Assembly: GCF_009759685.1 (NCBI RefSeq)
Contig: NZ_CP046654.1
Coordinates: 930,001-994,000, forward strand
DNA length: 64,000 bases
Reading direction: 5' to 3'
Origin: Acinetobacter baumannii
Lineage (GTDB): Bacteria; Pseudomonadota; Gammaproteobacteria; Pseudomonadales; Moraxellaceae
Shown here: in pieces, positions 54,546 to 59,013 of the stretch
How positions within the stretch are numbered: the stretch's first letter is position 1
Layout of the letters: every line of letters starts with the position of its first letter
Notes under the pieces: model-generated
What the model was told of the DNA's origin: nothing
The model's input: the letters and a program-made list of their open reading frames with translations, nothing else
Database searches by the model: none
Made by a program: the position numbers and the translations under genes

Positions 54546-54582
54546 TAAAAAAAATCCCCTTGTACTCAAGGGGATTTTTTTT
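54546..54582. terminator. Bidirectional terminator, bfr/pglL
   Basis: Stem AATCCCCTT/AAGGGGATT with long A and T flanks between two convergent genes. Confidence 0.93.
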
Positions 54583-56209
54583 ATTTATTTTTTAACAACT
54601 CTGCCAAAGTTATTTGCTGTCGATAAAGATGCTGCAAAATAAATATTTGCTGCTCGGCCTGTTCTACTTTTCCATTATAGGCAAGTAGCTGGGCATATTT
54701 ACGCAAGTTATAAGGCGTCGCTTTATTCTTCACAAAATTACCCCATACTGCTAAATCAGCATCAGATAAAGTAGTTTCAGGCTTCATCTCAATCCATTTT
54801 AGACGCTGCTCAAACTGCGTTAAAATAAAAATCTGATTACTTCCTAAAATCTCAGCATTTGGCTGTTTATTCTTAAACAGCAAATTACTATTTGTGACAT
54901 AGACATTATAGTCACGCCAAATTGCTACCAGAAGTATTACACTTATTCCCCAAATTAATCGAAGAACCTGCTTGTTGAGTACAATACCTTTGAGTACAGG
55001 TGTCTGTGCCTGAATTATGCCTAATAAGAAACCACAAGTAAGTAAGAAGTAAGCGTAGCGTTGAGGAAACTCTAACATGGCATGAATGAGTACGGTACAC
55101 ACCATCATAATTGCAATAATTGAGATAGTTTCTTTAGCCTGCTGATTTAGCCAAACGAACCAACATGCAAAGTAAGCAATAATGACTATACCTATTGGGA
55201 TACCGTTCCAGATGATGAGATCTAATAAAATATTATGGGCACTGGTCGTCCACTCAGTTGTTGGAAAAAGAGCATAAGCTGACATTTGCGCCACACTGGT
55301 TTGGTGCCAACCATACCCCAACCAAGGATGCTGCTGTACAGCAAGTAGCATTTGGGTCCAGATATTAAAACGTAAATATCCAGAACTTGCTCTTTCAACT
55401 AAACTACTTGCTTGGGTTACTTCAGCGCTTGACCATGCTTCAATTAAACTAGTAGCAAATGGCAGAATCACGCCAGCTATTACAAAAAAACCAGCGCACC
55501 ACAAGAACCCTTGCATAAAACCAAATCTTTTTTGTTTTCCAAATAGTTTAACTATCCAATAGATAAGTAAAAATGGAAAAACGACCCAAGACGTTCTTGA
55601 TTGGCTTAAAGTGATTGTAAACAAGATAAGGAGTGCTGAAGGGAAAAGTAACCAAACTGTTGCTTTATTCTTTTCATATAAAAATAGACAACCTAATAGC
55701 CCCATAATCAGAAAGGTTGCCATATTGTTAGGTTGACCAAAGTTGCCGTAAGGACGGTTACCAATTAAATGCAACATATGCACAAAATGAGACTCAATAT
55801 TTAACCATTGGCATATCGCAATAAAGCTGGTCGCAATTGATACAATAATCAGTAATAAACTAAAGCCTGTAAAAATTTGATCTCGCTTTTGTTGATCTAG
55901 TGACAAGTTATAACCCGCCACAACCATAAACCAGAAGCCTAATAAGTAAAGTGAACTTAACAAAGCTGTACTAAAATCAAAAACTAGACCAAAAGCCCAC
56001 TGCACCACTGGAATTAAAATAAATGGCAATAGCAATAATTGTGCACGCGGAATTTTAATATTTTGATAAAAAAGTGCAGCTAAGACACTTAAACCTGCCG
56101 CAAAAGTACTCATTTCACTAGAAAACATTACCCAAGGGTTATAGTGAAATGGTGATAACCACGCAAAACCCAACAAAATTGCTGCGAGGAACAGAAAGAA
56201 TACTTGCAT
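54581..56209 (-). CDS. pglL: O-oligosaccharyltransferase PglL
   Basis: 542 residues with about 12 membrane segments and a C-terminal soluble tail. The Wzy_C/PglL signature is seen around the periplasmic loop with QQHPWLGYGWHQTSVAQM and the NAHN-like SAHNILLDLIIWNG. PglL moves undecaprenyl-linked glycan to serine or threonine of many periplasmic and outer-membrane proteins. In A. nosocomialis and A. baumannii it lies next to tfpO and pilA, as here. It lies 106 bases after tfpO. Confidence 0.87.
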   Translation of the reverse strand: MQVFFLFLAAILLGFAWLSPFHYNPWVMFSSEMSTFAAGLSVLAALFYQNIKIPRAQLLLLPFILIPVVQWAFGLVFDFSTALLSSLYLLGFWFMVVAGYNLSLDQQKRDQIFTGFSLLLIIVSIATSFIAICQWLNIESHFVHMLHLIGNRPYGNFGQPNNMATFLIMGLLGCLFLYEKNKATVWLLFPSALLILFTITLSQSRTSWVVFPFLLIYWIVKLFGKQKRFGFMQGFLWCAGFFVIAGVILPFATSLIEAWSSAEVTQASSLVERASSGYLRFNIWTQMLLAVQQHPWLGYGWHQTSVAQMSAYALFPTTEWTTSAHNILLDLIIWNGIPIGIVIIAYFACWFVWLNQQAKETISIIAIMMVCTVLIHAMLEFPQRYAYFLLTCGFLLGIIQAQTPVLKGIVLNKQVLRLIWGISVILLVAIWRDYNVYVTNSNLLFKNKQPNAEILGSNQIFILTQFEQRLKWIEMKPETTLSDADLAVWGNFVKNKATPYNLRKYAQLLAYNGKVEQAEQQIFILQHLYRQQITLAELLKNK

Positions 56210-56315
56210 AGTGATAGGTTTGAGACTATTAGAAATGGGTGAAATTATACATGGAACCCTAAAGAAAAATGTATGAGTCTATATGAAAAGGACTTGATAA
56301 AGTTTACTTCAAAAG

Positions 56316-57626
56316 TTAAGGAATTTTTGAGGTTGGTACTAAGTGCTCCGCACCACCATAAAACCAAAAGTTTGGAGCCATTCGTCCTCCATAGCTTCCA
56401 CAATTCCAACAATTTAAATCTTGTCCTAAATACATTATTGTGATGTATAAGAATAAAACTCCCCATAAAGCAATCAGTATTTTTGTCGATCTAAAAGAAT
56501 ATTGGGAACTAGAAGTTAACTCTCTATGAGAAAAAGTAAAAGCTATAAATAATACACAGGCAATTTGTGACGCTGGGTACACCATACTACCTGAGAACAT
56601 TGCATCAACTAAAACGGCGATCACACCAACTTTCAAAATTAGTGAAACAGTTTTATCTTTAAATAAGCCAATTAACTGGGTCAACATCCATATACAGAAT
56701 ATGAGACCTATAATGCCCCATTCAAAAATAAGTCTTAAATATAGATTATGTATATGACGTCCATACGCATACTGGATCTTAGACAAATAGCCACCACCAA
56801 CCCCAGTAAATGGGTGCTGTTTCCATTGTTCAAATACAAACTTCCACATTTCTGCGCGCAGCGATGTCCCCGCTCGTATTACAGTCATTGTACTTTTTTC
56901 AGCTAAAAAAATAGTAATTTTATAAACAAAAAAAGCTAAAAAAATATAAATACAGCTTTGCAAAATAAGCTTTCGATTTTCTTTAGAGTATATAAAGAGA
57001 ACTAGTAATCCTGTCATTACCGCAAGTAAAGCGGACCTAGCTCCATCAAAAAACCATGCTAAAGCAAAAAAGAAAATTGCTATAGGGTAAGAATAAGAGA
57101 TATAAGGATATTTCTTATTTTTTAGATAAATCAGGAAGAAAAACAAGGGAACAATAACACTATCATAAATCCGAATCGTGCCAGAGTTAAACTGCCAATC
57201 AAACCATTGTTGATGGATAATAAAATTAAAAATAGAAATCAAAATAAACAAACATGGAATAATCGCTGTAACTACAATTAGTGCAATACCATGCTCTATA
57301 TTTTTTATATTCCTTAACTCATATGTTAAGGCAGAAAATATAAAAAGTAATGCTATCACAGACCAAAGCTCTTGAAACTCAAAAATTTCCCAATTTATTT
57401 GTTGAGTTAATATGAGCCCAGCAATAATAAAAAAAGTAATTTGACTATAAATTGAAAATTTTAGTTTTTTTGCGAAGATTAATATTAATAAAGCATATAG
57501 CGCTAAAGGAAACTGCAATAAACGAAGTTCATCATATTGAAAAATAGACCAGCCAGTTTGATACCCTAATATAGCTGTAATAAGATAAATTGCGACTAAT
57601 AGAAATAGAATAATTTTTTTTAACAT
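56316..57626 (-). CDS. tfpO: Pilin-specific oligosaccharyltransferase TfpO
   Basis: 436 residues from the ATG at 57626; a TTG 15 bases upstream also opens the frame. It has about 10-12 membrane segments and the Wzy_C ligase block FEQWKQHPFTGVGGGYLSKI followed by GRHIHNLYLRLIFEWG. The base composition is more AT-rich than its neighbours. TfpO glycosylates the C-terminal serine of the type IV pilin, and the pilA next door does end in serine. A terminator lies between the two genes, so tfpO is either read through or separately started. Confidence 0.85.
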   Translation of the reverse strand: MLKKIILFLLVAIYLITAILGYQTGWSIFQYDELRLLQFPLALYALLILIFAKKLKFSIYSQITFFIIAGLILTQQINWEIFEFQELWSVIALLFIFSALTYELRNIKNIEHGIALIVVTAIIPCLFILISIFNFIIHQQWFDWQFNSGTIRIYDSVIVPLFFFLIYLKNKKYPYISYSYPIAIFFFALAWFFDGARSALLAVMTGLLVLFIYSKENRKLILQSCIYIFLAFFVYKITIFLAEKSTMTVIRAGTSLRAEMWKFVFEQWKQHPFTGVGGGYLSKIQYAYGRHIHNLYLRLIFEWGIIGLIFCIWMLTQLIGLFKDKTVSLILKVGVIAVLVDAMFSGSMVYPASQIACVLFIAFTFSHRELTSSSQYSFRSTKILIALWGVLFLYITIMYLGQDLNCWNCGSYGGRMAPNFWFYGGAEHLVPTSKIP

Positions 57627-57643
57627 ATTTATTTTCTTCAATA

Positions 57644-57681: not shown

Positions 57682-58110
57682 TTATGAAGCTGTAAAAGAT
57701 TGTGGAAGTAACTCAGCTGGAGCATTAGTACTGCTATTCTTTGTTAAAATACCTGTTTCGCTTACATTCATTACAATCTGTTTAGAAGTAAGTTTAGTTG
57801 ATACACCCGATGATTTGAATGTATAGGTGATCGTACAATTTGGTGCAGTTCCGCCAATCTCAGCATCACCATATTTTCCAGCTACTTGATCAGCGGCCGT
57901 TGCTGCAGTAGCGCCGCCAGCAAAACATGTCCCAGCCTGTAAATTAGTATTAATTGTTGTTTTCAATCCATCTGCTAGAGTAAATGCCTCAGATGCTTGT
58001 GACTTAGCAATATAGTTTTGATACGCAGGAATCGCAATTGCCGCCAAAATACCGATAATGGCAACCACGATCATAAGTTCGATTAATGTAAAACCTTTTT
58101 GTGCATTCAT
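57682..58110 (-). CDS. pilA: Major type IV pilin PilA
   Basis: 142 residues. Six-residue leader MNAQKG is cut by PilD before [19 protein letters not shown]; Glu at +5 is kept. The mature chain is 136 residues, with two Cys (GTCFAGG and APNCTIT) that may pair, and ends in SFTAS, so Ser136 is the C-terminal residue, the known TfpO glycosylation site. PilA polymerises into the fibre used for twitching and DNA uptake. A sigma-54 promoter lies upstream. GGGGA precedes the ATG. Confidence 0.95.
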
Positions 58111-58171
58111 AGCCTTTTCCCCAAAGATTGTATGTATGTTTTTATATAAGCTTTTCAGCTATCAAATATAT

Positions 58172-58187
58172 TGCAGCAACCATGCCA
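58172..58187 (-). promoter_or_regulatory. Sigma-54 promoter of pilA
   Basis: Minus-strand TGGCAT-N5-CTGCA has the invariant GG and GC of sigma-54 promoters at the required 10-base spacing. A start would fall near 58161, giving a leader of about 50 bases to pilA. Pilin genes of Pseudomonas use RpoN with PilR. Confidence 0.75.
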
Positions 58188-58261
58188 ACTTTTATTATTG
58201 TTAAAAAACATAAACTTATAATTTATAAAGCCTTATTTTAGTAGCTTAAGCTGTAATTAAC

Positions 58262-58276
58262 TGACAAAAATTGTCA
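58262..58276 (-). promoter_or_regulatory. Candidate PilR site 1
   Basis: Palindrome TGACA-AAAAT-TGTCA, centred about 108 bases upstream of the inferred pilA start. It contains the (C/G)TGTC-like core known for PilR sites in P. aeruginosa. Assignment to PilR is inference. Confidence 0.5.
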
Positions 58277-58382
58277 CTAGGAATTTAGTAGAACTGAATC
58301 ACCGATAAAAGTTAATTTATTGCCTATTTCATTTTTTTAATATCGAATGTGATAAAAATCTCTATAAAAATAATCAAATAGG

Positions 58383-58397
58383 TGACATTTTTTGTCA
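58383..58397 (-). promoter_or_regulatory. Candidate PilR site 2
   Basis: Palindrome TGACA-TTTTT-TGTCA with the same arms and spacer length as site 1, centred 121 bases further upstream. It is nested in a second repeat GGTGAC/GTCACC (58381-58403). Confidence 0.5.
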
Positions 58398-58452
58398 GTC
58401 ACCTTATTGAGCAAAAATTTAAAAAAAACAGTTAAATTTTTGAGTCAATCAT

Positions 58453-59013
58453 TTAATTAATAATGATAGGTGCGTTACCTAATTCATTTAATTGATCTGG
58501 CATGTTTTCATCGTAAAAGCGCGCCATCACTTCTCCAATTTGCTGAACTCCTGTAACTACCGCTTTCTGATATTGTTTTTGTTGAAGCTGCTCTACAATC
58601 GACTTACAAATCTGCTGCCATATTTGTTCAGTAGTTGCATTCCTAATCCCACGATCAAAGATGATTTCTACTGTGCGTTCACACAGATTTAAATAGAGCA
58701 ATACACCACTATTGAGCTCTGTATCCCATACACCCAGTTCTGCAAATAATTGCTGGGCTCTTAAACGTGTATTTTGTCTATACGCTTGTGAACATGGGAT
58801 ATGGCCTTCTATGACAACCTGTATTTCGCCAACATGTCCATGCTCTGCTTGCTGTACAGCCTCAGCAATAACTTGTTTGTCTTGTTTGGAGAAATATCTG
58901 CTACTTGCTGGTAAATAACAAAAATGCTTAAACCAACGTTTTAAACTTGGCTCTACAGATTCCTCAATTTTTGGCTGAGTAATAATTTGGGTTGTTTCTG
59001 ATGTTGTTACCAT
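58453..59013 (-). CDS. TPM domain protein, second copy
   Basis: 186 residues. The TPM (Psb32/YgcG) domain is visible in FSKQDKQVIAEAVQQAEHGH, GEIQVVIEGHIP and ELNSGVLLYLNLCERTVEII. No signal peptide is present, unlike the partner at 59007. It overlaps the stop of that gene by 7 bases, so translation is coupled. LemA and TPM proteins often occur together; their job is unclear. Confidence 0.85.
   Translation of the reverse strand: MVTTSETTQIITQPKIEESVEPSLKRWFKHFCYLPASSRYFSKQDKQVIAEAVQQAEHGHVGEIQVVIEGHIPCSQAYRQNTRLRAQQLFAELGVWDTELNSGVLLYLNLCERTVEIIFDRGIRNATTEQIWQQICKSIVEQLQQKQYQKAVVTGVQQIGEVMARFYDENMPDQLNELGNAPIIIN

Follow-up and report, generated by a model that had tools for sequence, protein, structure and literature searches.

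The closest described system is the control of the major pilin gene in Pseudomonas aeruginosa, which combines an RpoN promoter, a PilS protein with six transmembrane segments, and the regulator PilR, with upstream sites made of GTC-containing half-sites. The Acinetobacter locus described here appears to have the same parts. Jin, in 1994, is said to have described (C/G)TGTC repeats as the PilR sites of P. aeruginosa. A second relevant system is NtrC, whose sites are of the type GCAC-N5-GTGC. These enhancers resemble the present locus in having half-sites one helical turn apart, a Fis-type helix-turn-helix (HTH) protein, and a position upstream of a -24/-12 promoter; the half-site here, unlike that of NtrC, is TGACA and the target is a pilin gene. 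In Acinetobacter, pilA serves in twitching and DNA uptake.

In the available part of the published description, the PilR marks of P. aeruginosa are TGT-N11-AGA and GTCT elements (PMC6058289). Compared with that description only, the sequence reported here has GTC cores in common with these marks and differs in arrangement: it is an inverted TGACR-N5-TGTCA with an A/T spacer, and one species complex has two copies. In A. baumannii A118, deletions of pilS and pilR reduce the pilA transcript and render tagged PilA undetectable, and PilSR is essential for transformation (PMC8088505, available part), whereas in A. baylyi mutation of pilR or pilS leaves transformation normal and diminishes twitching (PMC5542475, likewise). 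In strain ATCC 17978 the annotation splits pilR into three pieces (PMC5382811). Literature searching, limited in part to sections and passages, turned up no Acinetobacter results on binding by PilR, on RpoN or on the start site. None of the matches listed (titles and the beginnings of abstracts, subscription papers being mostly outside) concerned this palindrome or a change of sigma factor by PilR. PilR and sigma54 at a pilin gene are already known; what would be new is the definition of the operator and a second site specific to one species complex.

The window is the whole stretch of A. baumannii DNA that was analysed, 64,000 nt in length. The features of the pilA region are:

57682..58110, minus strand, pilA, type IV pilin of 142 aa (PF00114 Pilin, PF07963 N_methyl)
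58111..58160, minus strand, predicted pilA leader with GGGGA ahead of the start codon, strongly conserved in the species complex
58161, minus strand, predicted transcription start (+1), from the -12 spacing
58172..58187, minus strand, -24/-12 (sigma54) promoter TGGCATGGTTGCTGCA, with GG at 58185-58186 and GC at 58173-58174 (GG-N10-GC)
58252..58256, minus strand, TTACA, third element, located downstream of TGTCA by one step of 10 nt, possible extra half-site
58262..58276, no strand, proximal palindrome TGACAAAAATTGTCA, TGACA-N5-TGTCA, centre at -108, likely PilR dimer site
58383..58397, no strand, distal palindrome TGACATTTTTTGTCA, TGACA-N5-TGTCA, centre at -229, likely second PilR site
58453..59013, minus strand, TPM-domain protein (PF04536), upstream neighbour of pilA and anchor of the comparative search

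The +1 position was set 12 nt past the C of the -12 element, and the palindrome centres are counted from there. Genes for LemA and the TPM protein precede pilA on the same strand. Downstream of pilA, at 54581-57641 of the window, are two O-antigen-ligase-type genes (PF04932) in tandem, one of which is nearest to NCBIfam TfpM with a score below the cut-off. Presumably one of the two is a pilin-specific ligase and the other a general protein glycosylation ligase.

A sequence-only reading of this DNA had pointed out a minus-strand TGGCAT-N5-CTGCA with strict GG/GC spacing, and both its sequence and its coordinates (58172-58187) are correct. It is the sole exact match to TGGCAYN6TGCW in the window and has GG-N10-GC within it. 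Because 0.84 such matches are expected by chance in the window, the element alone is not significant; the weight we would give it is that of its conservation, which it shares with an activator-type site upstream.

The same reading had described two palindromes with equal 5-base arms and 5-base spacing. This is exact, and the centres are 121 nt apart. When read on opposite strands, the two are nearly one 18-mer, GTGACA(A/T)TTTTTGTCAGT. The genome scan for TGACA-N5-TGTCA that it had called for (3.99 Mb) found four places, two of them at pilA, and the pattern read backwards occurs at one place in the whole genome. The window was expected to have 0.06 palindromes, and none of 100 dinucleotide shuffles had two. 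Since, in addition, half of the genome's four are found here, the pair is beyond chance. As to the other two places, the palindrome at 304012 (L001:1501-1525) has an extra TGTCA one step on and is located about 80 nt ahead of a 136-aa open reading frame that is without a -24/-12 element; the one at 3481812 is within a 515-aa open reading frame, transporter-like as judged by eye.

The comparison of pilA upstream regions across Acinetobacter, also called for by the sequence-only reading, used named loci fetched via the neighbouring TPM protein (the best 80 of 123). Seventy of these have a pilin gene behind TPM. The palindrome is present with at most one mismatch in all 70 and is perfect in 46, and TGGCA-N7-TGC is found in 61. 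The ten loci left out of the counts comprise two at contig ends (L006, L081) and eight with no match to the pilin pattern. In seven of the eight the palindrome is in place (L027, L031, L034, L040, L042, L061, L067), and in six of these it precedes a start reading GFTLIDTP followed by a stop codon, L027 being seen incompletely; the eighth, L076, is rearranged.

Both elements are present in 61 loci (again from the best 80 of 123); the gap from palindrome to TGGCA is 74-75 nt in 11 of them, 92-93 nt in 24 and 97-100 nt in 22, and the remaining four have gaps of 89, 89, 106 and 118. Gaps were sought at 60-130 nt and the groups were defined by the gap, which in part accounts for their narrowness. 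In the three groups the TPM stop codon is at a distance of 26-180, 13-343 and 160-261, respectively. With a narrow gap in 57 of the 61 loci and a TPM-stop distance of 13-343, the site therefore travels with the promoter: the spacing of the palindrome is, on this comparison, tied to the promoter, unlike its distance to the upstream gene.

The two elements were then treated as one composite, TGACRN5TGTCA-N71..101-TGGCAN7TGC, in a genus set of 175 genomes, where it is present in 123. Its chance origin was rejected, the reversed controls giving 0 in the genus, family, order and G425-family scans. A pilin start, GFTLI[E/D], is at most 450 nt away from 135 of the 138 genus composites (122 with E; 13 with D, reading GFTLIDTP and then stop). 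Two of the others (L128, L190) have the same insertion directly behind the promoter, which splits it from the pilin gene, and the last (G064) is within an apparent coding sequence and looks like a chance match. Thus the composite in the genus is almost confined to pilins. The composite spacer is 97% A/T. Of 137 composites, 50 have the TTACA element at a 10-nt step past TGTCA. Among the 73 composites of the 92-93 nt class, cTGtTTTT and taTAAT blocks are conserved just upstream of the -24 element; these are possibly a second, sigma70 promoter.

Outside the genus, 17 of 19 composites in the family sample precede a pilin gene. The order sample gave 17 composites, of which two (the genome's own and that of G179) were already counted and nine of the other 15 precede a pilin gene; the family of G425 gave 11, two already counted, with six of the other nine preceding one. 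A pilin gene is thus behind 15 of 24 further composites outside the family. The spacer is A/T-rich also in pilin loci of 55-61% G+C, and in 10 of the 11 outside-genus composites without a pilin gene it contains G or C. The eleventh, L327, is without a pilin gene but has an A/T spacer, and may represent another kind of target.

Second pilin genes away from TPM bear the same composite. In 13 genomes the reading frame of the composite-bearing pilin ends at an identical codon (GFTLIDTP, then stop), and a common sequence follows. In six islands (L426-L431) a second pilin start, convergent and equipped with a palindrome and a sigma54 promoter of its own, is found 11-17 kb off. A 24-nt repeat, CCATAAGT..TATGGACAT, follows the pilin stub in the islands, and the same repeat, inverted, precedes a start-less and promoter-less pilin body in three of the six (L426:569 on the minus strand, L427:13513, L428:12950). 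The arrangement of stub and repeat suggests a system for pilin switching or one of silent cassettes. Inside one island (L431:9015-14430) are three large open reading frames in a row (475, 645 and 688 aa), which we take to resemble tyrosine recombinases.

The composite is absent from 52 of the 175 genus genomes, and the TPM anchor is present in 49 of these. Forty-five composite-negative loci were examined: 30 by eye, with a pattern scan on 15 of those and on 15 new ones. Twenty have a sigma54 promoter, and their palindrome is weaker, shifted or off by one mismatch. In 17 the palindrome is present and the canonical -24/-12 is absent; one of them, L343, has a weak GG-N10-GC (TTGGCAACTTTGAGGC) near the palindrome. 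Five are pilR-negative and three are interrupted by contig ends.

The genome encodes one RpoN (PF04552 match, E 8e-69). Its proteins with a Sigma54_activat domain amount to three strong and four weak matches. The strong ones are NtrC, located beside its kinase and above the NCBIfam cut-off, PilR, located beside PilS, and one protein without a receiver domain. PilR consists of REC, Sigma54_activat (PF00158) and HTH_8 (PF02954) domains, and PilS carries PF25323 6TM_PilS. No NCBIfam model names this PilR above its cut-off; the name is given because of its domains and the PilS alongside. The sigma54 loop of this PilR is intact (GSFTGA), and with its cognate PilS it makes up a PilS-PilR pair.

These data make it very probable that the pilA control region consists of an RpoN -24/-12 promoter with PilR acting at the palindromes. 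Sigma54 activators work by a general mechanism that is established. At pilA, polymerase with sigma54 (RpoN) would be held at the -24/-12 element, unable to open the DNA unaided. A dimer of PilR, phosphorylated with PilS as its kinase partner, would occupy TGACA-N5-TGTCA about 108 bp upstream. PilR would then oligomerise and, via looping, bring about promoter opening with its AAA+ domain and GSFTGA loop. Another site of this kind, present about 121 bp further upstream in the A. baumannii/calcoaceticus complex, probably raises the amount of PilR close to the promoter. PilR binding to the palindromes, RpoN-dependent transcription and the role of the distal site are what we infer. The sequence-only reading had proposed a sigma54 promoter with a PilR-type enhancer, and this is the best fit to the computed evidence (RpoN, the PilS-PilR pair, and the coupling of palindrome, -24/-12 and pilin gene). 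It is also more general than was proposed, as the composite is genus-wide and occurs elsewhere in the order.

One part of that reading was two matching enhancer sites. The proximal site is indeed general; equal status of the two does not hold, as the distal palindrome is found only in close relatives of the window. It is present in all 10 loci of the window's complex (nine named loci and the window), and a second perfect palindrome is present in none of the 61 other named pilin loci (best 80 of 123), four of which (L035, L036, L063, L082) have a one-mismatch version. This distribution would suit a distal palindrome that is a relic or without a role, the proximal site acting alone. The distance between the two sites fits this as well: 121-123 nt is about 11.6 helical turns (10.5 nt per turn), which places them on roughly opposite faces of the helix. 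Conservation within the complex argues the other way. In 11 aligned upstream regions, 14 of 15 columns of the distal palindrome are invariant, compared with 12 of 15 for the proximal palindrome, 11 of 17 for the -24/-12 stretch and 44% for the region overall. The distal palindrome is thus among the best-conserved blocks, with parts of the leader better conserved. Moreover, the exact pair occurs in 11 of 175 genomes at a conserved spacing, 121-123 bp in the complex. A relic is therefore considered rather unlikely, and the distal palindrome is likely a further PilR site, an assignment held less firmly than that of the proximal palindrome.

Another regulator, e.g. NtrC or a factor unrelated to sigma54, might occupy the palindrome in place of PilR. 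NtrC and a third enhancer-binding protein are also encoded in the genome, and the palindrome persists at loci without -24/-12. Calls of pilR (E of 1e-110 or less) were positive in 167 of the 175 genus genomes, some of the eight negatives being incomplete assemblies. The composite is kept in one genome where pilR was not found (G169), that is in 1 of 8, as against 122 of 167 with pilR (one of these being the chance match in G064; Fisher p 0.0009, uncorrected for kinship), and 45 of the 167 are without the exact composite. Of the five pilR-negative TPM loci, four are without a palindrome before the pilin gene (one of them, L371, has a -24/-12-like sequence), and the palindrome of the fifth, L358 in genome G046, has G+C in its spacer and is ahead of a different pilin-like gene. 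The near confinement of the genus composites to pilins also argues against another regulator, as does the PilR recognition region, which is nearly constant wherever the palindrome is kept (80 genomes, including the clade with altered loops described below). In addition, the pilA transcript is lowered in A. baumannii mutants of pilR and of pilS (PMC8088505, available part), and another regulator is regarded as improbable.

The palindromes could also be stem-loops that terminate LemA/TPM transcription rather than protein sites. In named loci with a short gap of about 200 bp (best 80 of 123) the palindrome is 8-27 nt past the TPM stop codon, and a T-run of 5 or more occurs within the next 9 nt in two spacing classes (31 of 73 composites in one, 24 of 35 in the other). 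Of the 17 loci that lack -24/-12, 16 have a T-run behind the palindrome. Termination is highly improbable for pilA, since the window's control region (58050-58480) has no terminator-like site (GC-bearing stem followed by a T-run), for which the terminator reading was rejected there, only 2 of 23 composites of the window's spacing class have the T-run, the palindrome keeps its distance to the promoter and not to the TPM stop, the same composite occurs at second pilin genes remote from TPM, and several of the 11 relatives have disrupted outer pairs flanking the distal site with an intact inner palindrome (these sequences being palindrome-selected).

The 17 loci with a palindrome and no canonical -24/-12 show that the palindrome is not tied to sigma54 alone. 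The PilR loops of 80 of the 167 pilR genomes were compared: 61 with a sigma54-type pilin promoter, 17 without -24/-12, and two set apart. G044 is counted as sigma54-type though a contig end removes its promoter (L331). All 61 genomes of the first group have the loop GSF[TS][GN]A (54 GSFTGA, 5 GSFSGA, 2 GSFTNA). The sigma54-contact loop is altered in 17 of 17 genomes of the second: nine have GCFSGA and two HSFAGA, and GCFPSA, GSFVGA, NSFAGA, GSFYGA, GHLPDV and ATSAGT are found once each. Of the two set apart, G058 has the loop GCFSGA yet has a composite before the pilin gene. GCFSGA may therefore be compatible with sigma54 activity; such activity is harder to square with the eight remaining altered loops. 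G148 (2.4 Mb, 99% complete) has a full-length PilR with the loop GSFAGA, no composite and no RpoN match. Since RpoN is present in all 17 genomes without -24/-12, its loss was rejected as an explanation of the altered loop.

The PilR recognition region is modal in 13 of the 17. A TTG hexamer starts 61 (14 loci), 62 (1) or 63 (2) nt past the palindrome start in all 17, with TA[AG]AAT 16 nt beyond it in 12 and a poor -10 in the other five. The best sigma70-like site is at that place in 13 of 17, compared with a mean of 0.83 and a maximum of 5 in 200 sets of shuffles, and the sequence between palindrome and sigma70-like site has a mean identity of 51%. Among the named loci with such a promoter are A. 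guillouiae (L050), A. piscicola (L037), A. silvestris (L079) and A. rongchengensis (L030). On the PilR tree the 17 genomes group into a single clade that also contains G058 and the sigma54-type G004 (7% contaminated), and some of its branches are long. In essence this amounts to a single event, so that the 17 cases lack independence and counting cannot test the relationship (at most 2-3 changes and two independent pairs, with no statistical power).

Tentatively, and somewhat short of probable, PilR in this one clade may have switched from a sigma54 enhancer-binding protein to an activator of sigma70 polymerase, with helix and palindrome kept. The window promoter is in the sigma54 state, which could have been the starting point of such a switch. 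Alternatively, pilA in the clade would be constitutive and PilR decaying, with the palindrome retained as a terminator; the T-run in 16 of 17 is consistent with this, and the kept PilR helix and the rigid spacing argue against it. Enhancer-binding proteins (bEBPs) without GAFTGA that are active at sigma70 promoters are known (PMC10274813). As far as the available part of that source goes, Rhodobacter capsulatus NtrC, Caulobacter NtrC and VspR are like the clade in having an altered or missing sigma54-contact loop and a target without -24/-12. Both NtrC proteins have loop deletions; the loop of the clade PilR is substituted, and the window PilR keeps GSFTGA.

A defined operator would allow a direct test of PilR action and would provide a search pattern for the genus that is nearly exclusive to pilins. 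It would also give a handle on the difference between A. baumannii and A. baylyi in their need for pilR and pilS. If true, the switch in the sister clade would be a natural experiment in which an enhancer-binding protein changes its polymerase and the DNA site is kept.
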